Source: a virus. Taken from it: a stretch of 41,058 nt of DNA. Position 1 is the stretch's first letter. Every line of letters begins with the position of its first letter. This document shows, piece after piece, positions 5,095 through 41,058 of this stretch. The position numbers were made by a program, and so were the translations under genes. The stretch is taken from positions 1 through 41,058 of the IMG/VR virus record IMGVR_UViG_3300046376_000145. One strand, written 5' to 3'. The notes under the pieces are model-generated. The model did no database searches, had not been told where the DNA came from, and saw only the letters and a program-made list of their open reading frames with translations.

Positions 5095-5420
5095 GGCCGC
5101 ATCGGTCCGTTCCACTCGACATCGGGATCAGCGGGTTCGGTGCCGACCTCCACCCACGTGGCGTCGCCGTTGGGACAGACGTGACCGCCATCGTGCCCAG
5201 CGTTCAGATGGCACCAGTGCTGCCTGCGGAACCCAGGGTCGATCAGGCCGGCCGAGCACGGAGCCGGCGCGTCGGGGTCGTCCTGGACAGGCCGAGGGGC
5301 GCAGTCGACGGCGTTCATGGCTCCGATCACGCCGCCGCCCGCGAGCGCCATCAGCAACTCAACCGGAACTGATACCGGATTGTTACTCGGCGGGGGCGCC
5401 ATTCCGTCACTCTGCGTCAC
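5091..5420 (-). CDS. Protein with a Cys2His2-like motif, between terminase subunits
   Basis: A 109-residue protein starting at GTG 5420, overlapping the small terminase stop (GTGA). The N-terminal third is Pro/Ala-rich with a short hydrophobic stretch (about residues 20-35). The C-terminal part carries Cys, then CHLNAGHDGGH, fitting C-x14-C-x5-H-x3-H. The same spacing occurs repeatedly in the plus-strand early genes at 12.3-14.8 kb, so this is the one late-operon member of that set. Metal binding is inferred from the residues only. Confidence 0.7.
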   Translation of the reverse strand: MTQSDGMAPPPSNNPVSVPVELLMALAGGGVIGAMNAVDCAPRPVQDDPDAPAPCSAGLIDPGFRRQHWCHLNAGHDGGHVCPNGDATWVEVGTEPADPDVEWNGPMRP

Positions 5421-5929
5421 TTCAGCGCCTCCGGATCGACACCGACGACGCTGTACTCCACCGTGGCGTCCATCGTGACCTTCTGCTGGGTGGGCGCGTT
5501 CTCCCCCATCAGCACCGACAGCTGCGCGTGGATCATGCGCGCCTCACGGATCGCGGCCAGCTTGGGCGCGTCGTCCACCAGCGGCTTGCCCGTAGTCGGG
5601 TCGTGCACCACCACGCCGTTGCTGTGCGCCACATGGTCGCGGTCCATGACCTCCTGGGCGCGGCGCATGAGCTCGGCCAGCTGCTCGGACCGCTCGGCCC
5701 GCAATTCGGCCATGGCCGGCGCGGGGATGGCCCGCAGCGCCCGCCGCCACTGCTCCCACACCGATTGCTTGGACGGCGCGTGGCCCGTCTTGCCCGGATC
5801 GGTGGGCCACTCGCCGGCCTCCCACAGCCGCCGTCCGATCTCGTCGAACGGGATGGCATCCCGGCGCAACTCCACGATCCGCATGCGGGCGATGGCCCCG
5901 GCTTCCTCTTTCCAAACGCCTCTGTCCAT
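5417..5929 (-). CDS. Terminase small subunit
   Basis: This 170-residue protein is likely to recognise the packaging site and deliver DNA to the large subunit. A helix-turn-helix-like N-terminus (about residues 14-40, with FDEIGRRLWEAG) is followed by long charged helices suited to oligomerisation (about 65-100 and 120-145) and a short C-terminal tail. It is the first structural gene of the late operon. The start is ATG 5929, with GGGAGGCGG about 13 bases upstream. Assignment is by helix-turn-helix, position and size. Confidence 0.82.
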   Translation of the reverse strand: MDRGVWKEEAGAIARMRIVELRRDAIPFDEIGRRLWEAGEWPTDPGKTGHAPSKQSVWEQWRRALRAIPAPAMAELRAERSEQLAELMRRAQEVMDRDHVAHSNGVVVHDPTTGKPLVDDAPKLAAIREARMIHAQLSVLMGENAPTQQKVTMDATVEYSVVGVDPEALK

Positions 5930-6437: not shown

Positions 6438-9400
6438 TCAGCCGCTGTGCCAGCTGCGCGCCGGCGGGCCGCCAGCCGAGGCCGTGATGGCGATGTCGCC
6501 GAGACGGTGGGTCATCACCCGCATGAGCGTGTCCAGGCCGTCCTGCGCCCGGTCCTCACGGGCCATGGCCACCACCTCGTCGTGCACCGGCATGAGCGTG
6601 CCGCCGCCGTGCTCGGTGCCGTCCCAGGCCACCAGGGTGTCGCCGAGCAGTTCCCGCGCGGTGCCCTGGATGAGGTAGTTCGGCCCTTTGTGCGGCTGGC
6701 GCGGGTCCAGGTGGATGATCCGGCCGCTGTAGGTGCGGAACGCCCGGTTGCCAGCCCGGATGGCGGCCTTGATCTCCTCGGACCACTGGGCGAGCCGCGG
6801 GGTGAGCTGGCGCAGCGCGTCGACGGCGGCGGCGACGATCTCGGTGGAGACGCCGCTCTGTTTGGCCAGGGTGTCGTAGCCGCCGCCGTAGATGTGGCCG
6901 AACACGATCCGCTTGGCCAGGGTGCGGCACTCGTCCGCGAGTTCTTCGCCGAACACCTGGGCCGCGATCATGCGGTGGATGTCCAGGCCCTGCTCCAGCG
7001 CGGCCCGCAGCACGGGGTCTCCGGACAGCGCGGCGGCCACCCGCAGTTCCACGCCTTCGAAGTCAGCCGAGACGATCATGAACCCGTCGTCGGCCAGGAC
7101 GCACTCCCGGATGCCGCCCTTCTTGCTGATCTGTTGCATGTTGGGCCGCACGCAACTCATCCGGCCGGTGTCCGCGCCGAGGGTGTAGACCGTCGGCCGC
7201 ACCCGCCCGTCACCCTGGAGCACGGCGATGCGCCAGGGCCGCAGGATCAGCTTGAGCGCGGTGTCCTGGTGCCGCCAGTCCAGGACCAGCCGTGCGGCGG
7301 CCTGAGCGGGCCCCTGGCGCTCCGCGAGAGTGTTCATGACGTCCTTGGCTGTCGACGGCGCTCCCTTGGGCGTCAGCGGCAACTGGACGCCGAGCGCGGT
7401 GAACGCCACGCCGAGTTGCTTGGGGCTGGCGGGGTTGTCGATGCCCAGGGTGTCGCGGACCTTCTCCCGCAGCTCCCGCTCCAGTGCGTCCCGGGTGTCG
7501 TGCTGTTCAAGCACGCGCTCGGCGTCCAGCGGGAAGCCGAAGGTGGCGGCGGGGGCCACGACGCGCTGGATGTGGCGCTCCCGGGCGTGCACGTCGGGAT
7601 CGGGCGCGGGCAGTTCCAGCGCCAGCAGCGCGCCGTCCAGCACGTCGGCGCAGGCGTAGGTCTGCATGGTGGCGCAGCGGCGGTCCACCTGGAGCCACCC
7701 GGACTTCTCGGCCGGGGTGGTGGCCTCGGTGTCCTTGAGCCAGTCGGCGGCGGCGAACAGCGCCGAGCGCGCCTCGTCCGCCCCAGGGCTGACCGCCTGT
7801 GCGCCGAGCACCGCGGCGCTGGCCGCCTTCAGACCCGGGTCGCCGCCGGCCGAGCTGGGGTCGGCCAGCTTGGCGGGCAGCACGGTGTCCTCCATCTTGG
7901 CCCACAACTCGTCGTGGCTGGCGATGCCGGCGTGGTGCAGGGCCGGGATGTCGGCGTTGGCGTTGTGGGCGTGCAGCACCTCGGCGCGCTTGAGCGCGGC
8001 GGTGGCGATGGCGCAGCAGACGGCGCAGTCGGCGTCCAGGTCCACGGCCAGCACGCGGGTGCCGAGTTGGACGGTGCGCAGCGCGTACAGCGGATGGCCG
8101 ATCGGGTAGCCCGAGGTCTCCACGTCCACGGTGAGGTGGCCGCGGCTCTTGGCCATGGCGTCGGTCAGCAGCGGACCCACGTGGACGTGCTCCAGATGCC
8201 GAGGGGTGGGCGCGGTGCGCCGGACCACCACTGGCAGTTCCAGCAGCGGCCCCGCCAGCTCGGCCACGTGGGCCGCACGCTCGGCGGCCTTCTCGGCCCG
8301 CTTGCGCTCCGCCGCGGTGGACTCCCCGGGCTGACGCCGTGTAGCCGACTTGCGCGGCGGAGCCGATGGCGGGGTTGGCGGCTGGCGGGGCATTCCCCTA
8401 TCTGTTCTGTGTACTACTGTGCTTACTCCATTTGTACTACTACCTCCTTCTCCCCCTTCCTTATTACCCTTTTGACTCGCCAAGCCGCCAAGAGGGAAGA
8501 GAGAAAGGGGGGTTGAACTGGGGTTTTCCGGGGTGGCGGGTTCCGCTGGCGACTCGGTCTCAGAGCCGCCAAGTTGATCACCCGTACCCGCCACCCCGGC
8601 GCCGCTTTTCGCAGATGGAGCAGTCGGCTCCTGGGCCGGCGGCTGGTTGGCGGGTTCCGCCGGCGCGTACTCGCCAGCCGCCGCCACCGGGTTTGTGTTG
8701 AACACGGAGTAACCGCCAGGGCCGCCGAGGCGCAGCGCCCGCATCCAGAGACCACCGCGCTTCTCGGACGGGTAGCCGGCGGCGGACAGGTTCCGGCCGA
8801 ATCTCGTCTCGGACACCGTGCCGTGTCGGTAGGCCGGGTTGTGCTCGCACCAGACCCGGTAGGCCTCATAGAGCGCTCGGCCCGGGGTGCCGATCGGATC
8901 TGGCGTGGTGCAGGCCGTGCGCCAGGCGCTGACGGTGTCCTGCATGTCGACGATCTCGGCGGTGGTGGCGCGCACCATGTCGGGCGCGTTCTCGTTCAGC
9001 CCGATGGACCGATCGGCCAGCCACGCGCCGGCTCGGCGCATGAGCGCCGCCAGCACGCCGGGAGCCTCGGCCAGCCACGCCGGGCCGGACAGCGCGCCGA
9101 CGGCCTCCCGGGCCCGGCGCACGTCGGCCGGGTCGCCGTCGCAGGGCACCAGACGCACCCGTCGGCGCAGCGCCGGGTCGGTGAGCTGGGGTTCGTCGTT
9201 GGTGGTCATCACCAGCGTGTGGGTGGGGGCGAAGGTGACGGGGTTCTGGTTCATGGCGTTGCCGGTCAGCGGGATGCCGCCGGTGAGTTGTTTGAGCCGT
9301 TCGATGGCCAGGTGCCCGCGCCGGGGCCCTTCGTCCACCACCGCCATCCGTCGGCCCTTGAGCGCGTAGATGACGCTGGCGTGCGTGTTGTCGGCTCCCG

Positions 9401-11108
9401 CGAGGATGCGGGGGTCCGCGGCCATGGCGTAGTTGCCGAGCACGTTCATCACCAGGTCCACCACCGAGGACTTCCCCCGACCGTGCTCCCCGTAGAGCAC
9501 CGGCAGGGCGGCGTCGGCGTGCCCGGTGAGGCTGACGCCGAGCAGGGTCAGCGCCCACTCCCGCACCGCCTCGTCGGGCCACACCGACTTCAACAACTGG
9601 TCCCACAGCGGGGTGGGCATCGCGAAGTCGGGGGCGAACCGGGCGGTGCGCAGGTGCGGCGTGGCCGGGTTGAGCACGTCGGCCTGTCCGGTGCGCAGGT
9701 CATAGGCCCGGCCGCCGGCCCACAGCACGTCCGGCTCGGCGTCCAGCGCGGACAGATCGATGTGGCTGGGGTGGTTGCCCAGCGCCAGCACCGCCTGGGT
9801 CATGGCTGCCAGCGACGTCGGCGACAGCCCCGAGTTGCCCTGTCCGCCCTGTCCGCCGAGTTTGCCCGTGTAGCAGTCCCGCCGCCAGGACCGCCAGTGC
9901 TCGGCGGTCCACTCGTCCTTGTCCTTGGGCCGCGGCGTGACGCCGAGCGGCATGTGATCGGCCGCCCGCGCCACCAGTCCCCGGCCGACGGCCGCCTTGG
10001 TGGACAACTCGGTCCAGACCTCGGGCGTCTTCCACTCCACGAACACCGCGGTGTCGGGCGAGTAGCGCAGCGTCGGCCACTGGTGCGCCAGGATGGCCTG
10101 GGCGTGCTCCTGCGGGTTGCCCGCTCGGGTGGGGTCGTAGAGCGGCAGTGTCATGGCGGCCGGCCGGGGCGCTGCCGCCGGCGGCTGTGCGGCCTGCTGT
10201 CGGGCGGCCACGATGTCCTCGTCGGACAGGACGCTGTGGGGCCGCGCGATGCCGTCGTTCAGTCCGGTGCCGATCCACTCGGCGTCCTTGGCGTCCATCG
10301 GCGCGGACCACGCCGCCCGGACCGCCTTCTCCAGCTCGAACTCGGCGTCGCCCCGCGACAGCACGCCAGCGCCGACGTAGCCGCCGATGGTGTACGCCGC
10401 GCGCATGAGCACGTCGCGGTAGCCCTGCTGGGGCCCTGTGGGCGCGGCCGCCGCGGCCAGTTCCCGGGCGATGGCGGCATGTGCGGTGGCCAGGTTGTGT
10501 GGCTCCCGCTGGGTCGACCACTGGGCGTAGAGGCTCGGGTTCCCTTGCTCCGCAGGTCCGGATGGCGTTCTCGGTTCGGCCGGCCCGGTCAGCGCCAGCA
10601 CGGCGTCGGGCACCTCGGGCAGATCGGTCACCGGAACCACGGCGGACAGGTGCCGGCCTTCCCCGACGGCCACCGCGTAGCCGTTGGTGGCGTCGCCCCG
10701 GGTGTCCACGCCGGGCGCGATCCGGCCGGCGGTCTGCGGCAGGGACTGCCCGTCCGCACGCCGGCGGTAGTACAGATGGGCACCGCCGCGCGGGGTGAGA
10801 CCGACCATGGCCGAGCCGGGCAGGCCCTGCGACGTCCACCAGGTCACGCCGTCCACGCCGTCTTTGACATCCAGGTCCACGATGGCCACACCGCTGTGCC
10901 GGGACAGCACGGCGAAGCCGTCGGCCCCCTGCGCCAGCCAGAAATCTACGGCGGCGATGTCCCGGACGCCGGCGTCATCGGCCGCGTAGGGACACATCGG
11001 CGTCTTGCCCCGCATTGGCAGCAGGACGTAGCCAGCGGCCAGCAGCGCGTACGCTCCGGCGGCGGTGTTCCCGGGCAGCCCAGGAACGCCTGTCGTGCTA
11101 GATTCCAC
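6438..11108 (-). CDS. Fused PrimPol - D5/SF3 helicase - 3'-5' exonuclease - family A DNA polymerase
   Basis: A single open frame of 1,556 codons from GTG 11108 (AGTAGGTAG upstream). Residues 1-175 are a bifunctional primase-polymerase domain: VDLDVKDG with Asp78/Asp80, GGAHLYY (108-114), GVDTRGD. Residues about 500-690 are a D5/SF3-like helicase: Walker A GEHGRGKSS (540-548), Walker B MAVVDEG (588-594), LVMTTNDEP and arginines ALRRR. Residues 850-945 are a low-complexity linker. Residues about 985-1165 are a proofreading exonuclease: VDVETSG (Asp995, Glu997), HNANAD, and YACAD (Tyr1151/Asp1155). The rest is family A polymerase: motif A SADFEGVELRV (Asp1349), O-helix Arg1395/Lys1399/Phe1403/Tyr1407, and motif C VHDEV (1508-1512). 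All catalytic residues are intact. In phages I know, these are two genes. Confidence 0.93.
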   Translation of the reverse strand: MESSTTGVPGLPGNTAAGAYALLAAGYVLLPMRGKTPMCPYAADDAGVRDIAAVDFWLAQGADGFAVLSRHSGVAIVDLDVKDGVDGVTWWTSQGLPGSAMVGLTPRGGAHLYYRRRADGQSLPQTAGRIAPGVDTRGDATNGYAVAVGEGRHLSAVVPVTDLPEVPDAVLALTGPAEPRTPSGPAEQGNPSLYAQWSTQREPHNLATAHAAIARELAAAAAPTGPQQGYRDVLMRAAYTIGGYVGAGVLSRGDAEFELEKAVRAAWSAPMDAKDAEWIGTGLNDGIARPHSVLSDEDIVAARQQAAQPPAAAPRPAAMTLPLYDPTRAGNPQEHAQAILAHQWPTLRYSPDTAVFVEWKTPEVWTELSTKAAVGRGLVARAADHMPLGVTPRPKDKDEWTAEHWRSWRRDCYTGKLGGQGGQGNSGLSPTSLAAMTQAVLALGNHPSHIDLSALDAEPDVLWAGGRAYDLRTGQADVLNPATPHLRTARFAPDFAMPTPLWDQLLKSVWPDEAVREWALTLLGVSLTGHADAALPVLYGEHGRGKSSVVDLVMNVLGNYAMAADPRILAGADNTHASVIYALKGRRMAVVDEGPRRGHLAIERLKQLTGGIPLTGNAMNQNPVTFAPTHTLVMTTNDEPQLTDPALRRRVRLVPCDGDPADVRRAREAVGALSGPAWLAEAPGVLAALMRRAGAWLADRSIGLNENAPDMVRATTAEIVDMQDTVSAWRTACTTPDPIGTPGRALYEAYRVWCEHNPAYRHGTVSETRFGRNLSAAGYPSEKRGGLWMRALRLGGPGGYSVFNTNPVAAAGEYAPAEPANQPPAQEPTAPSAKSGAGVAGTGDQLGGSETESPAEPATPENPSSTPLSLFPLGGLASQKGNKEGGEGGSSTNGVSTVVHRTDRGMPRQPPTPPSAPPRKSATRRQPGESTAAERKRAEKAAERAAHVAELAGPLLELPVVVRRTAPTPRHLEHVHVGPLLTDAMAKSRGHLTVDVETSGYPIGHPLYALRTVQLGTRVLAVDLDADCAVCCAIATAALKRAEVLHAHNANADIPALHHAGIASHDELWAKMEDTVLPAKLADPSSAGGDPGLKAASAAVLGAQAVSPGADEARSALFAAADWLKDTEATTPAEKSGWLQVDRRCATMQTYACADVLDGALLALELPAPDPDVHARERHIQRVVAPAATFGFPLDAERVLEQHDTRDALERELREKVRDTLGIDNPASPKQLGVAFTALGVQLPLTPKGAPSTAKDVMNTLAERQGPAQAAARLVLDWRHQDTALKLILRPWRIAVLQGDGRVRPTVYTLGADTGRMSCVRPNMQQISKKGGIRECVLADDGFMIVSADFEGVELRVAAALSGDPVLRAALEQGLDIHRMIAAQVFGEELADECRTLAKRIVFGHIYGGGYDTLAKQSGVSTEIVAAAVDALRQLTPRLAQWSEEIKAAIRAGNRAFRTYSGRIIHLDPRQPHKGPNYLIQGTARELLGDTLVAWDGTEHGGGTLMPVHDEVVAMAREDRAQDGLDTLMRVMTHRLGDIAITASAGGPPARSWHSG
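8391..8520 (-). other. AT-richer linker-coding stretch inside the replication fusion
   Basis: This stretch is visibly poorer in G+C than the surrounding sequence. On the minus strand it holds A_AAG_GGT (8472-8466) in zero frame, TAA (8466-8464) in the -1 frame, a perfect AAGGAGGT (8449-8442), an ATG ten bases later (8431) whose frame stops after two codons, and an in-frame ATG (8393, residue 906). It encodes Gly/Ser/Lys-rich, unstructured sequence between helicase and exonuclease. It looks like a former intergenic region captured by fusion. Confidence 0.55.
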
Positions 11109-11180
11109 GCGTTCTACCTACTTTCATGAACGTTTGGTTATGCATGCCCGGCCTGGTCAGCTGGTCGTGCGGTGGAACTG

Positions 11181-11236
11181 ATCACTCCTCCAGGGTGATT
11201 GGCCCTCACTGTACCCACGGTGGGGGCCTTCTTCTG
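11181..11236 (+). terminator. Tandem hairpins upstream of the early operon
   Basis: ATCACTC (11181-11187) pairs with GGGTGAT (11193-11199), one G-U. GGCCCTCAC (11201-11209) pairs with GTGGGGGCC (11220-11228), also with a G-U, and is followed by TTCTTCTGTTG. The second looks like an intrinsic terminator on the plus strand. It lies in the 223-bp region between the divergent replication gene and early operon, so it may insulate the early promoter or attenuate a leader transcript. Confidence 0.5.
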
Positions 11237-11294
11237 TTGTGGGAGCTCGGACTCTACGCCGGAACCGCTGTCGGCTGGGGCAAGAGGCACCGAG

Positions 11295-14538: not shown

Positions 14539-14828
14539 TCGACCTGCTGATCGACCTTCTGGGTGGCGCGCTGGACGCCGTGATCGATTGGCGGGTGGAG
14601 CACAAACAGCGCCACAACCGGCTGCCCGTGCGGCTGGCCAGCGAGCTCACCGAGCGCTGTCTGGAACGGTTCGGCGACACCAGCGACGCTCCCGAGTGCC
14701 AGCAGCTCAGGGGTCACGCCGGGGAGCACTACGACCCGCGTCCACACGGCGTGATCCACGACTTCCGGTGGACGTACAGCGCCGGCCCGGACGGAACGCT
14801 GTATGTCGAAGGGAAGTGGCTCCAGTGA
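14535..14828 (+). CDS. Protein with one Cys2His2-like motif (97 residues)
   Basis: GTG 14535 overlaps the previous stop. An amphipathic or hydrophobic N-terminal helix (VIDLLIDLLGGALDAVIDW) leads to a basic stretch and one module, C-x12-C-x5-H-x3-H (CQQLRGHAGEH). The tail is aromatic (TYSAGPDGTLYVEGKW). The stop overlaps the start of a 20-residue gene. Confidence 0.7.
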   Translation: MIDLLIDLLGGALDAVIDWRVEHKQRHNRLPVRLASELTERCLERFGDTSDAPECQQLRGHAGEHYDPRPHGVIHDFRWTYSAGPDGTLYVEGKWLQ

Positions 14829-14887
14829 GCGACACGTGTTGGGAGCACCAGGTCGTGGACTGTCCGGTGTGCGGGGCGAAGAAGTGA
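14825..14887 (+). CDS. 20-residue Cys-rich microprotein
   Basis: GTG 14825 overlaps the previous stop (GTGA) and its own stop overlaps the nuclease start GTG 14884, so both ends lie in the same overlap chain as the neighbours. The peptide has one N-terminal Cys and a CPVCG zinc-knuckle-like end. Its main role might be translational coupling, or it could bind metal. It is too short for homology. Confidence 0.5.
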   Translation: MSDTCWEHQVVDCPVCGAKK

Positions 14888-15723
14888 CCGGGGGGCCGAG
14901 CCTGGCGGCGTTCTTCGCCGCGCCCAGCAGCGCGCCCCGGCTCGCCTCGGGCAACACCGAGTGGGCGCAGCGGATGGCCGCCGAGGTCAAGGCCGTCATC
15001 CGGCACGCCAGCGAGTGGGCTCCGCGCTCCCAGCAGGTGCACCTCGGGCCGAGCGAGCTCGGCGTGGAGTGTGACCGCCAGGTGGTCGGCAAGCTGGTCC
15101 GGGAGACGCCCACGAACCACGTGTTCGACCCGTGGCCGTCGTTCATGGGCACCGCCGGGCACGCCGCGATGGAGAAGGCGTTCCAGGACGACAACCGGCG
15201 GATCGCGCCGCTGCCCGGGGAGCCGCCCGACTTCGTGCGGTGGCTGACCGAGACGCGGGTGGTCCCGCACCCCGAGCACCCTGGCACCGCCGACCTGTAC
15301 GACGCCCGGGAGCGGGCGGTGCTCGATCACAAGTTCCTCGGCGACTCCAGCCGGGAGAAGGTGGTGGCCGGCCGGGTGTCGCGGAAGTACAGGCGTCAGC
15401 TACTGCTCTACGGCCTGGGCTACCTGCGGGCCGGGCGGCCGGTGGACCGGGTGGCGCTGATTGCCTACCCGCGCACGCGGTCCACCCTGGACGGCCTGTA
15501 CGTGTGGGAGACGCCGTTCGACGCCGACGCGGTGGCCGAACTGGTGGACACCTTCGCCGAGACGGCGCGGCGCAAGGGCTACGCCGCCGAGGTGGCCGCT
15601 GGCCGGATGACCCTGGAGCAGGTGCCCCGCACGCCGGTCCGGGACGAGTGTTTCTACTGCCCCTTCTACCGCCCCGAGGGCGGACACGGGCCGGCCGTCG
15701 GCTGCCCGGGAACGGTGGGATGA
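14884..15723 (+). CDS. Cas4/RecB-like PD-(D/E)XK nuclease with Fe-S cysteines
   Basis: A 279-residue exonuclease, probably acting on DNA ends in replication or recombination. The catalytic set is visible: His93 in GTAGHAAME, Asp137 in GTADLYD, Asp148 and Lys150 in LDHK, and Gln172 in RRQLLLYG. Four cysteines at 63, 256, 259 and 274 fit the [4Fe-4S] cluster of Cas4-type nucleases. It is not linked to CRISPR here. The start GTG 14884 overlaps the microprotein stop. Confidence 0.88.
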   Translation: MTGGPSLAAFFAAPSSAPRLASGNTEWAQRMAAEVKAVIRHASEWAPRSQQVHLGPSELGVECDRQVVGKLVRETPTNHVFDPWPSFMGTAGHAAMEKAFQDDNRRIAPLPGEPPDFVRWLTETRVVPHPEHPGTADLYDARERAVLDHKFLGDSSREKVVAGRVSRKYRRQLLLYGLGYLRAGRPVDRVALIAYPRTRSTLDGLYVWETPFDADAVAELVDTFAETARRKGYAAEVAAGRMTLEQVPRTPVRDECFYCPFYRPEGGHGPAVGCPGTVG

Positions 15724-18004: not shown

Positions 18005-18105
18005 GTGGGCTGTGGTGGCTGCTGCTGGCCCCGGCCAGTTTCACGCTCGGCTGGTGGCTGGGCGCGAAACTGGCTCGGTGGACGGAACGGGAGCAGAACC
18101 GATGA
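18001..18105 (+). CDS. 34-residue membrane microprotein (4 of 4)
   Basis: GTG 18001 overlaps the previous stop. A Trp/Leu-rich hydrophobic stretch (GLWWLLLAPASFTLGWWLG) is followed by a charged tail with RWTEREQNR. The stop overlaps the helicase ATG 18102 (ATGA), so the chain feeds directly into the helicase. Confidence 0.5.
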   Translation: MSGLWWLLLAPASFTLGWWLGAKLARWTEREQNR

Positions 18106-19904
18106 ACGCCCTGCACGCCGAGATCCACGCCGACGGCGACCGGGTGATCCTGTTCGCCGACGGGCCGGACATCGCCGCCATCGCCCAGGGGCTGGAACTG
18201 CTCACCCCGCTGATCAAGCCCACCGACCCGCCCGGCGCGCTTCAGGCACCGCTGTGCTGGCCGCTGGTCGTGCAGCTGGCCATCCAGTACCCCGGCGTGT
18301 TCTTCCCGGGCCCGCGGCTCCAGGCGTGGATCGCGGGTCAGGTGTCGGCCCGGATGCCACAGGACGATCCCGAGTCGTGGGTGCCGCTGGGCAACGAGAC
18401 GGCGTTCGGGGGCAAGACACCCCGCCTCTACCAGCTGGAGGGGGCACGGATGCTGGCCGGCACCGGCCGGGGCTTCCTGTTCGACGACCCCGGCACGGGA
18501 AAGACGATCACGGCGATTCTGGCGGTGCTCCGATTGCGGGCGGCCGGCGTGATCCCGCTGGCCGGTCCGATCGTGGTGGTGTGCCCCGGCACCGTGCAGG
18601 ACAGCTGGGTGCGCGCCTGGCGGGAGTGGACGACGTTGTCCGCGGTGGCCTGGCGGGGCACGCCGGACCAGCGCCGGCGCAAGGCCGGCATCGCGGATGT
18701 CTACGTGGTCAGCTACGCCACCGCCCGCAATGACGCCGTCGCCCCGCGCAAGGCCACCCCGACGCATCCCCGACGAGTGGCCGGCCCGCTGTGGGAGATG
18801 ATGCCGTCAGTGGTGATTGTGGATGAGTGCCACGCCCTGAAGAACCGGGACTCCAAACAGTCACAGGTGGTCCGCTCACTCGGTTCCCGGGCCCGGGCGG
18901 TGTTCGCGCTGTCGGGGACGCCGATCACGCACACCGTACGCGACCTGTGGCCGAACATGGCGATGGTCGACCCGGCTGGTTACCACTCCGAGGAGAGGTT
19001 CACCTCCCGCTACGTGCTCACCACGAAATCGGACTACGGCGAACCCGAGGCGCTGGGCATCCAGCCCTGGCGACAGGCCGAGTGGGACATGGCGCTGCTG
19101 GGGCAGTACCGGCGGGTCAGCAAGGCCGACGTCCTTCCGCAGCTTCCGCCCAAGGTCTACTCGGTGCGGGAGGTGGACCTGCCGCCGGAGTACCGCAAGG
19201 CCTACGACGACCTGGAGGACCAGATGCTGGCCGAGCTCCCGGGGGAGGATGTGGAGCTCAAGACCATGACCGAGCTGTCCAAGCTGGAGCTGCTGTGCCG
19301 GCTGGCCTGTGCCGCCGCCGACGTGTTCACGGTGCTGGTGGAGGTGGTCAACCCGCTGACCGGGGAGACCGAGATGGAGGAACGGGCCCGGGCGACGCTG
19401 CGTGCGCCGAGCTGGAAGGCCGACGCGCTGGTGGAGGTGCTGGACGAACGGCCCGGGCAGCAGGTGGCCGTGTTCGCGCCGAGCCGGCAGATGATCGACG
19501 TGGCCCACGAGGTGGTCACGAAGGCGGGCTACCGGTGCGCGCTGATCGTCGGCGGGCAGTCGGCGACGCAGCGCACGGCGGAGGTGGACCGGTTCCAGGC
19601 CGGCGACGCCGACGTGATCCTGGTGACCACCTCGGCCGGCGGCGTCGGCATCACGCTGACGGCGGCGTCGGTGGTGGTGTTCCTGCAACGCCCCTGGAGT
19701 TACGTGGAGGCCAGCCAGGCCGAGGACCGCTGCCACCGCATCGGCTCGGAGATCCACGACTCGATCGAGATCATCGACATCGTGGCCCGGCGCACCGTCG
19801 ACTCGCGGGTGCGTGAGGTGCTGCGCACGAAGGCGGGCGCGCTGGCCGAGCTGGTGAAGGATCCGAGGATCGTGCGGGAGGTGCTCGGCGGTGCCCAACG
19901 CTGA
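18102..19904 (+). CDS. SNF2/DEAD-box family helicase (superfamily 2)
   Basis: A 600-residue DNA-dependent ATPase. Residues 1-100 are a phage-specific N-terminus; motifs follow: Walker A DDPGTGKT (128-135), Walker B DECH (241-244), motif III SGTP (271-274), and motif VI QAEDRCHRIG (about 541-550) with VTTSAGGVGITLTAA before it. The QxxDRxHRIG box is typical of SNF2 proteins. Its place between putative SSB and resolvase points to replication or recombination, for example fork remodelling. The start is ATG 18102. Confidence 0.92.
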   Translation: MNALHAEIHADGDRVILFADGPDIAAIAQGLELLTPLIKPTDPPGALQAPLCWPLVVQLAIQYPGVFFPGPRLQAWIAGQVSARMPQDDPESWVPLGNETAFGGKTPRLYQLEGARMLAGTGRGFLFDDPGTGKTITAILAVLRLRAAGVIPLAGPIVVVCPGTVQDSWVRAWREWTTLSAVAWRGTPDQRRRKAGIADVYVVSYATARNDAVAPRKATPTHPRRVAGPLWEMMPSVVIVDECHALKNRDSKQSQVVRSLGSRARAVFALSGTPITHTVRDLWPNMAMVDPAGYHSEERFTSRYVLTTKSDYGEPEALGIQPWRQAEWDMALLGQYRRVSKADVLPQLPPKVYSVREVDLPPEYRKAYDDLEDQMLAELPGEDVELKTMTELSKLELLCRLACAAADVFTVLVEVVNPLTGETEMEERARATLRAPSWKADALVEVLDERPGQQVAVFAPSRQMIDVAHEVVTKAGYRCALIVGGQSATQRTAEVDRFQAGDADVILVTTSAGGVGITLTAASVVVFLQRPWSYVEASQAEDRCHRIGSEIHDSIEIIDIVARRTVDSRVREVLRTKAGALAELVKDPRIVREVLGGAQR

Positions 19905-39286: not shown

Positions 39287-40723
39287 TCAGTGCGCCAGCA
39301 CCACGTAGGGCGACAGCTTGACGCTGGAGTTGTTGTGCGGGGTGATCGGGGCCGGCAACCAGGGCCGGCCGTCCACGCGCTCGATCGCGCGGAACGCGGT
39401 CTTGTCGGTGCCGAACAGGTAGTCGGCGCTGGACTCCACCTGCATCATCTGCCGGTCGCCGACCAGGTACTCCGAGAAGTCGACGAACATGCAGTCCGGG
39501 TTGGTGCCGGCGGCGAAGCCGAGCGGGCCGATCTTCTCCGTGAACAGCACCGGGCGGCCGAGGATCGTGGGCGTCGGGTCGCCGACGGCGTTCGGGATCC
39601 ACAGCATGACCGGGACCGGGATGGTGCCGCCGCCGCCGCCGCTGTTCGGGATGAAGTAGAGCTCGGCCATCTCGGCGAAGGCGTCGTGCGACAGAACCCA
39701 GCAGGTGTTGGGGATGCTGGCCGGGTACATGGACTGGTACATCGCCACCAGATCCTCGTACCGGATGTGGTTGGTGGTCGTGCGGGTCACCGACACCACG
39801 CCGCTGCCGTTGACGACGCCCAGCGGCTGGGTCACGCCGTCACCGGTGAGGAAGGCGATGTCCTCGAACCAGGTCACACCCTGCGGGAACTTCGCCGAGA
39901 ACCAGGACATGAACGCCGGCGCGTCCAGCATCAGCTCATTGGGGATGCCGGCGTAGCCCATCAACTTCTTGGCGTCCAGGGTGACCTGGCCGAACTTCGC
40001 CGAGCTGTCGACGCCCGGCGCACCCTCGGCCGCCCAGAAGAACTGGAGGCCACCGAAGATCGAGGTGACGCGGGACCGCTCGTCGACGGCCGGGATCGGC
40101 ACCTTGAGCGAGTCCATCTGGATGACGGTGGCGCGCTGGCGCACGATGGAGGTGGGCAGCGCCAGCTGGAGGATCTCGGAACGCAGGATCTCGGGGATGA
40201 GGAAGCCGCCGTCCGAGGGCACGACGCTGCCGTAGGAGTTCTGAATCTCCTGGAGCGCCACCAGCCGGTTGACCATGTCAGCCCGGTTGGGCACGTTGAA
40301 CGAGGACCGGCCCATGGCGTGCACCGCGGCGAAGTACTCCCAGGCGCTGGTGAACTTGTCGTCCACCGACGCGCCCAGCGCGCGCTTGCTCCACAGCTGG
40401 CCCTTGGACGTGCGGGCGTTGTGCAGGCCCATGCCGCGGCGCTTCTGCTGGAGCGCGGCCATCGCCTCGCCCGCCTTGAAGCCCTTGGGCAGCTCGTTGC
40501 CGTGGTCCTCCAGGTACTGGACCAGCTCCAGTTCCTTGGCGGCGGCGATGTCGGCGGTGGCCACCTTGCCGGCGTTGGTCTTGGCCCACTCGTTGGCGTA
40601 CTGCTCACCGAACGCCTTGAACTGCTGCGCCGCGAACACCGGATCCGTGCTGATCTTGTTCCGGATGTCCTCGGTCAAGTAGGTGCCGAGTGCGTCCGGA
40701 TTCGTGGGAATCGCCGTGGTCAT
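39287..40723 (-). CDS. Major capsid protein, HK97 fold
   Basis: A 478-residue coat protein. ATG 40723 overlaps the protease stop (ATGA); the longer open frame upstream is inside the protease gene. The N-terminal ~150 residues are charged helices (AAKELELVQYLEDHG, EAMAALQQKRRG) that probably act as a scaffold removed by the protease. The coat follows: GGFLIPEILRSEIL, TGDGVTQPLGVVNGSG, and PVLFTEKIGPLG near the end, all typical of HK97 coats. Confidence 0.94.
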   Translation of the reverse strand: MTTAIPTNPDALGTYLTEDIRNKISTDPVFAAQQFKAFGEQYANEWAKTNAGKVATADIAAAKELELVQYLEDHGNELPKGFKAGEAMAALQQKRRGMGLHNARTSKGQLWSKRALGASVDDKFTSAWEYFAAVHAMGRSSFNVPNRADMVNRLVALQEIQNSYGSVVPSDGGFLIPEILRSEILQLALPTSIVRQRATVIQMDSLKVPIPAVDERSRVTSIFGGLQFFWAAEGAPGVDSSAKFGQVTLDAKKLMGYAGIPNELMLDAPAFMSWFSAKFPQGVTWFEDIAFLTGDGVTQPLGVVNGSGVVSVTRTTTNHIRYEDLVAMYQSMYPASIPNTCWVLSHDAFAEMAELYFIPNSGGGGGTIPVPVMLWIPNAVGDPTPTILGRPVLFTEKIGPLGFAAGTNPDCMFVDFSEYLVGDRQMMQVESSADYLFGTDKTAFRAIERVDGRPWLPAPITPHNNSSVKLSPYVVLAH

Positions 40724-41058
40724 ACCGCAGTCCCTTCGTTCCACGCCCGCGAGAATGCCGAGGCGTCCCAATTCGTAGTAGGCGCGGCGGGCTGCTGTGC
40801 CTTCGCCGCGATGGTAGACGGTGCCGGCGCTGACTGGCGGCCGTCGAATCGGTAGAACGACATGTTCCACCGCTGGTCGGCCGTGTTCTCGGCCTGTGTT
40901 CCGGGCTCTCCGATGTGGTCGGCCAGGCCGGCGTCCACCGCCTCCTGGGCGCTGTACCACTGCTCCCCGCGCATGGTGTCGCGCCAGGCTGACGCCTCAC
41001 CGCCGGCCTTGTCGGCGTACATGCTGGCGATGTTGTCGCTGACCTTGTCCAGTAGGTC
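40720..41058 (-). CDS. Capsid maturation protease, 3' part (continues from base 1)
   Basis: This is the C-terminal part of the ClpP-like protease that begins at 922; codon phase is continuous across the join. It contains QWYSAQEAVDAGLADHIGEP, the helix that follows the catalytic core in S14 phage proteases, then a polar Pro/Ala-rich tail ending ASAFSRAWNEGTAV. The stop overlaps the major capsid start (ATGA). Bases 40932-41058 duplicate 1-127. Confidence 0.92.
   Translation of the reverse strand, partial: DLLDKVSDNIASMYADKAGGEASAWRDTMRGEQWYSAQEAVDAGLADHIGEPGTQAENTADQRWNMSFYRFDGRQSAPAPSTIAAKAQQPAAPTTNWDASAFSRAWNEGTAV
40932..41058. repeat. Terminal direct repeat, right copy
   Basis: Identical to bases 1-127; see the left copy. 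It should be counted once when the genome is closed. Confidence 0.95.

Follow-up and report, generated by a model that had tools for sequence, protein, structure and literature searches.

The gene described here probably encodes a self-contained replicase in which the DNA of an interdomain linker is at the same time a replication origin, and it would have been made by the joining of a rep gene to a polymerase gene through origin read-through. In the window, the whole stretch of 41,058 nucleotides that was analysed, a single frame of 1,556 codons runs on the minus strand from a GTG start at 11108 to a stop at 6438 and encodes 1,556 amino acids. Primase, helicase, proofreading exonuclease and polymerase domains sit in this one polypeptide, their enzymatic activities being predicted from sequence. 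For the clade of actinobacterial phages that share the gene, it is likely that the origin serves as interdomain linker of a one-gene replicon, whose initiation module can be swapped (as in locus L107) while fusion and array persist. The gene and its parts are:

6438-11108, minus strand: fused replicase gene, in the order PrimPol, D5/SF3 helicase, linker/putative origin, 3'-5' exonuclease, family A DNA polymerase
10608-11048, minus strand: PrimPol (AEP) domain, residues 21-167 (PF09250, E 1.8e-10, 42 bits against a cut-off of 22.8)
8835-9710, minus strand: P4/D5-family SF3 helicase, residues 467-758 (TIGR01613, 126 bits against a cut-off of 108.7)
8724-8891, minus strand: C-terminal domain of the helicase module, candidate iteron-binding domain, about residues 740-795
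8244-8723, minus strand: interdomain linker, about residues 796-955, frame open
8368-8656, minus strand: putative replication origin, with outer iterons, inner direct pair, AT-rich core and inverted inner copies
8648-8656, minus strand: outer iteron AACCCGCCA, exact
8585-8593, minus strand: outer iteron TGGCGGGTA (opposed, TGGCGGGT) in opposite orientation, one mismatch to TGGCGGGTT
8534-8542, minus strand: outer iteron AACCCGCCA, exact
8478-8491, minus strand: inner direct pair TTGGCGGC/TTGGCG (TTGGCGGCTTGGCG), spacing 8
8389-8477, minus strand: AT-rich core, 89 nt
about 8367-8388, minus strand: inverted inner iterons CCGCCAG/CCGCCAA/CCCCGCCA (CCGCCAGCCGCCAACCCCGCCA), spacing 7 and 9
7614-8147, minus strand: DEDDy 3'-5' exonuclease domain, residues about 988-1165, from motif residues and the structural model
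6504-7478, minus strand: family A DNA polymerase domain, residues 1211-1535 (PF00476, E 3.9e-48)

The earlier note had read four domains in this order in one uninterrupted frame, and Pfam, TIGR01613 and the motif residues confirm it, with exact coordinates and intact motifs; the note gave no strand. The PrimPol domain carries D78/D80, H111 and D135, and its motif I is nearly invariant in family alignment A3. TIGR01613 represents the C-terminus of P4-family primases (NCBIfam), and the proteins of loci L001-L003 score under its cut-off, at 84-89 bits. A Pfam match to DUF5906 covers helicase residues 538-644 (E 9.7e-9). The SF3 motifs are Walker A at G540-K546, Walker B at D592-E593 and motif C at N637, and G540, G545, K546, D592, E593 and N637 are invariant in alignment A3. 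Residues about 740-795, which follow, have a helix-strand pattern in the predicted structure, with good confidence across most of the region. The exonuclease domain of the window protein gave no Pfam match; its DEDDy residues (D995/E997, N1049/D1053, Y1151/D1155) are invariant across 12 relatives. The polymerase scores 164.7 bits with PF00476 (DNA_pol_A) against a cut-off of 34.3 and has motif A (D1349), motif B (R1395-K1399-Y1407) and motif C (H1509-D1510-E1511). The motif residues of polymerase and exonuclease are invariant or nearly so in family alignments A2/A4. The model of the polymerase half has a pLDDT of 92.5, with values above 90 across most of the exonuclease domain, and matches family A polymerases, phage G20c Pol I and Bst (7r0k among the entries matched). 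The N-terminal half is modelled at 76.8, good in the helicase and poor in PrimPol (mostly 50-60), and its fold matches full-length AsfvPrimPol and MPXV E5.

Helicase and polymerase share one ORF at 41 loci, which represent 35 distinct records, window included, after removal of six duplicates; the remaining pair L092/L259 is nearly identical. The carriers include prophages in Labedaea, Haloactinopolyspora and a Jatrophihabitans MAG, and two of the genomes come from cultured strains, Labedaea rhizosphaerae DSM 45361 and Haloactinopolyspora alba DSM 45211. A protein query retrieved three fused relatives with 55-59% identity, and the wider clade was found in bacterial genomes and viral contigs by a polymerase profile. 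A scan of genome contigs by full-length alignment gave no match, and the polymerase profile matched on the same contigs. Homologues spanning both halves, for which the earlier note had proposed a search, thus occur in 34 other distinct records, and the stop or frameshift in the linker that it had named as counting against the fusion is seen in none of the fused members. Its statement that the two halves normally occur separately in phages also held: in a tblastn search of 50,697 phage records, none of the 4,216 matching GenBank records aligned to 80% of the query at a single site, and in the best 60 of these 4,216 the match falls on at least two separately annotated genes.

Where the polymerase is at least 37% identical to that of the window and the contig is uncut, it shares one ORF with a helicase, except in L110 and L113; polymerases at 33% identity or less are all split or have no neighbouring helicase. 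In the polymerase tree, a quick search without bootstrap in which split sequences were represented by a subset, the fused sequences form one group (SH-aLRT 100, branch 1.35), with the phiC31-type split polymerases outside. Five sequences labelled as split fall within this group. Four of them (L097, L099, L106, L253) are 5'-truncated, their genes being cut at the contig end, and were dropped as split members of the clade; only L110 is genuinely unfused. L113 (7590-10267) encodes a relative of the fused-clade polymerases that is split over two frames, and a related helicase lies on the other strand.

The linker differs from the domains around it in base composition, with a GC content at codon position 3 of 0.56 versus 0.91-0.94 in the domains. 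The AT-richest 80 nt of the entire window (8398-8478) lie inside it. It is therefore more than a tether: around this AT-rich DNA lie short iterons that face inward, an array with the look of a replication origin, which the earlier note had missed. Only two exact copies of AACCCGCCA occur in the window, both in the linker, and seven of 100 window shuffles have as many anywhere. The window iterons are degenerate, the array is weaker than in most relatives, and the count of inverted 8-mers is not unusual compared with other parts of the same gene. When the whole window was scanned for the layout without a preset motif, the linker site (8491-8376) ranked first with a score of -0.64, the best of 12 local-composition shuffles scoring 1.59; only these 12 shuffles were used, and the scoring was set after the relatives had been seen.

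The array is clearer in the family. Of 26 members tested, 25 have the 80-nt AT maximum of the gene in the linker. The iterons differ by member (GTGACGGAT, TGACGGGTT, TGGAGGGTT, TGGCGGGTT, CGGACAGTT and others) while most of the clade arranges them alike: two or three copies in direct orientation come first, then a single inverted copy and a closely spaced direct pair, and beyond the AT core stand inverted copies followed by others. Where direct copies lie close together, the distance between them is usually 9 nt (19 cases) or 11 nt (20 cases). Exact 8-mer iterons typically number 5-13 per 600 nt of linker, against 0-2 in the rest of the locus. No clear iterons were found in L089 and L112, and few in L102. 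L089 (3978-9692) is a frame of 1,905 amino acids in which a LAGLIDADG match separates D5_N from DUF5906, possibly an intein in the helicase.

When viral contigs were scanned for the layout at the DNA level only, GTGACGG gave at least 120 matches and TGGAGGG 35, mostly outside long frames. Because a scrambled-iteron control pattern gave 30 matches in viral contigs, the match counts by themselves prove little; either the layout is no rarity by itself, or the scrambled motif is itself an iteron. The informative outcome of the scan is the recovery of fused genes: among the layout matches listed were eight fused replicase genes that protein search had missed (L208, L240, L251, L292, L298, L302, L308, L314). 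The matches L295 and L301 were dropped since the ORFs they span look unrelated by eye, and L248/L273 look like anti-sense frames. Two-sided arrangements of iterons around an AT core (L169-L323) recur in many viral contigs, for the most part away from long frames, and perhaps represent a widespread origin type.

L110 gives a view of the same element outside a reading frame. Its polymerase is 44% identical to that of L021 and has a separate ORF, which is preceded by GGAGG, 3' of the array; an ORF of 789 amino acids ends at 7454. BLAST recovered no helicase match for the latter, which may be called primase-like from its position and N-terminal look only. Between the two genes, at about 7455-7600 (within the stretch 7455-7660), CACTGGGT/ACCCAGTG copies form an array that includes a small AT-rich hairpin. 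L298, its sister in the tree, is fused and has the array within the frame. Since L110 is split and its sister fused, the same kind of element is a spacer in one and a linker in the other. This supports fusion by origin read-through as a plausible route, the direction of change not being settled, and L110 may be a secondary split instead of the ancestral state.

Several other explanations have to be considered. The two halves are adjacent genes in many phages, and an assembly or sequencing error could join them into a single frame; because 34 independent records, including the two cultured strains, carry the same fusion, this explanation is rejected, its probability being negligible. Alternatively, the fusion could be genetic only, with two products made in the cell through an internal translation start in the linker or proteolysis. 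The length, low complexity and GC3 drop of the linker would fit this, as would the in-frame GTG/ATG codons found near the polymerase start in some members. However, no start codon with a Shine-Dalgarno sequence is positionally conserved across members, whereas the unfused L110 does have GGAGG ahead of its polymerase ORF, and the frame stays open through linkers of widely differing sequence. It is thus unlikely that the members generally make two products.

With regard to the array, it might be the by-product of a repetitive, disordered peptide linker (e.g. VTDVTD repeats) that has no role as DNA. The linker peptides are rich in Pro, Ser, Thr and Ala and repetitive in some members, and all iterons of L001 and L003 are confined to one reading frame. 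On the other hand, same-orientation iterons occupy more than one reading frame in 23 of the 25 genes that have at least four copies, which implies selection on the DNA rather than on the peptide. In 24 of 26 members, inverted 8-mer pairs are more numerous than in codon shuffles of the same stretch (p <= 0.027), and a comparable array is non-coding in L110. A peptide origin of the iterons is rejected for most members by the frame and inverted-repeat tests and, as a general explanation, is very improbable. Iteron arrays serve also as operators and partition sites, and the fusion could be real while the array is a regulatory operator, for a repressor or for autoregulation by the replicase, or a partition-like site. 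Against this, the array is internal to the gene and distant from the region likely to hold the promoter (11109-11238), no other point of the genome is as AT-rich as its core, and in published SaPI origins the iterons follow directly on a P4/D5-family initiator module (PMC7581432). A role as operator or partition-like site instead of origin is therefore quite improbable, and the linker is best regarded as the putative replication origin of the phage, SaPI-like and translated through.

In SaPI origins, the iterons frame an AT-rich core. The same arrangement of opposed short iterons around such a core is present in the linker, degenerate in the window and clear in most relatives. The position differs, as the array lies in the coding sequence in the window and its fused relatives and is non-coding, as in SaPIs, only in L110, where it follows the primase-like ORF. 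A mechanism can be proposed by analogy with SaPI Rep, whose C-terminal domain recognizes its origin and whose iterons lie directly downstream of the rep gene (PMC7581432). The C-terminal domain of the helicase module would bind the iterons that flank the AT-rich core, and two rings would load on either side and melt it. The tethered primase and polymerase would then begin synthesis at the melted core. Within one chain, PrimPol would prime, the P4/D5-type SF3 ring would unwind, and the exonuclease-family A polymerase unit would copy and proofread. As for ancestry, a polymerase gene downstream of a SaPI-like rep-ori unit would have been joined to rep via read-through of the origin, the origin DNA thereby being turned into a flexible protein linker. 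If initiator and origin co-evolve as parts of a single gene, iteron sequences would be expected to switch among relatives under a constant layout, as is seen.

The initiation modules vary within the clade. Two types of PrimPol domain occur, one having the motif II histidine and the other lacking it. That of the window (10608-11048) is of the His type, and its closest relatives, L001-L003, together with other Arg-type members, are without it. Because of this discordance, the N-terminal PrimPol domain was probably exchanged, judging from the sequences. At L107 (5085-9416), the fused replicase has an AAA_25 (RecA-fold) helicase in place of SF3/D5 and retains PrimPol and Pol A; this helicase being of another class, the fusion was recognized only with its own helicase as query. 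The L107 linker contains an iteron-like array, CAGGACAGC.

The window belongs to a tailed phage, with genes for a terminase, portal, protease and major head protein, and an actinobacterial host is suggested by a WhiB regulator and by its relatives. The genes for the head protease and the major head protein lie at opposite ends (1-967 and 39287-41058). Since joining the ends puts them in the right order, the window probably represents the whole phage genome, either circular or permuted. Among 20 window ORFs searched with PHROGs (ten also with Pfam), no second polymerase, primase or DnaB-type/replicative helicase was found. A SNF2-type helicase is encoded at 18012-19901 and an exonuclease at 14803-15720, the latter with a PHROG match and a weak PD-(D/E)XK Pfam match. 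An ORF of 170 amino acids between the replicase and the terminase (5417-5929) matches PHROG_645, labelled RNase E (E 9e-7), and has no Pfam match. Upstream of the replicase, the divergent intergenic region 11109-11238 contains a GC-rich inverted repeat and is likely a promoter/terminator region.

If this reading is correct, one gene would constitute a minimal transplantable replicon, and its product would be a candidate enzyme for possibly primer-independent, proofreading synthesis. It would also be a second, independent four-activity replicase beside GP55, built from a family A polymerase, PrimPol and a D5 helicase. To our knowledge, no other replicase has an origin inside its gene, between helicase and polymerase. 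The arrangement raises the questions of how a helicase ring can function when each of its subunits bears a tethered polymerase (six in the hexamer supposed by the earlier note) and of how iteron specificity and initiator co-evolve within one DNA stretch.

One-protein replicases, Pol I-SF3 fusions and origins in initiator genes are already known; their combination, with a family A polymerase and the putative origin as coding linker across a clade, was not found described in the literature searched. There, no direct precedent was found for a phage PrimPol-helicase-Pol I fusion or for an origin within a primase gene, beyond GP55, TVpol-S3H and lambda O. The two halves also occur, in this order and at about 28-31% identity to the window protein, in the phiC31-type actinophages (such as Shady, TG1, Floof and CliffHanger). 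However, their primase/helicase and Pol I are two genes, often with other genes between, whereas the window has a single ORF and its polymerase belongs to a different tree group. No iteron/AT-rich array was found at the phiC31-type primase-polymerase junction, and the idea that the origin was already present in these phages was rejected on this ground. SaPI5 Rep and SCCmec Cch2 belong to the same P4/D5 helicase family as the window protein and likewise have iterons downstream of the helicase module; the SaPI origin is non-coding and 3' of the gene, whereas the putative origin of the window lies within the frame and is followed by a family A polymerase. In phage lambda, as in the window gene, iterons and an AT-rich tract lie in the initiator's own coding sequence, the origin being within gene O (PMC7466680). 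Lambda O, however, is an initiator only and not a helicase, primase or polymerase, and its array does not link enzyme domains.

The virophage protein TVpol-S3H (Sputnik V13, OLV25) resembles the window protein in that it combines a Pol I-related domain and an SF3 helicase in a single viral polypeptide (PMC3671162). Its polymerase domain stands at the N-terminus, TVpol forms a polymerase-primase family of its own, and the available part of that report mentions no AEP primase (PMC3671162). The closest counterpart in content is GP55 of lactococcal phage 1706, described in 2025 as a 'four-in-one replicase' and called unprecedented by its authors in the available text (PMC12205980). According to the same text, it is mainly a dimer in solution and, apart from SSB, the sole replication protein encoded by the phage 1706 genome (PMC12205980). 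Like the window protein, it is described there as combining an SF3 helicase, an AEP-type primase, a proofreading exonuclease and a polymerase in one phage protein. Its primase has its own alpha-helical domain, and the accessible part of the description contains no origin within the gene (PMC12205980). GP55 is arranged as helicase-primase-polymerase and ends in a family B polymerase domain, the mark of a GP55-like replicase, whereas the window polymerase is of family A. The window protein may work in a GP55-like manner while standing outside the GP55 group, and the two replicases are independent fusions.
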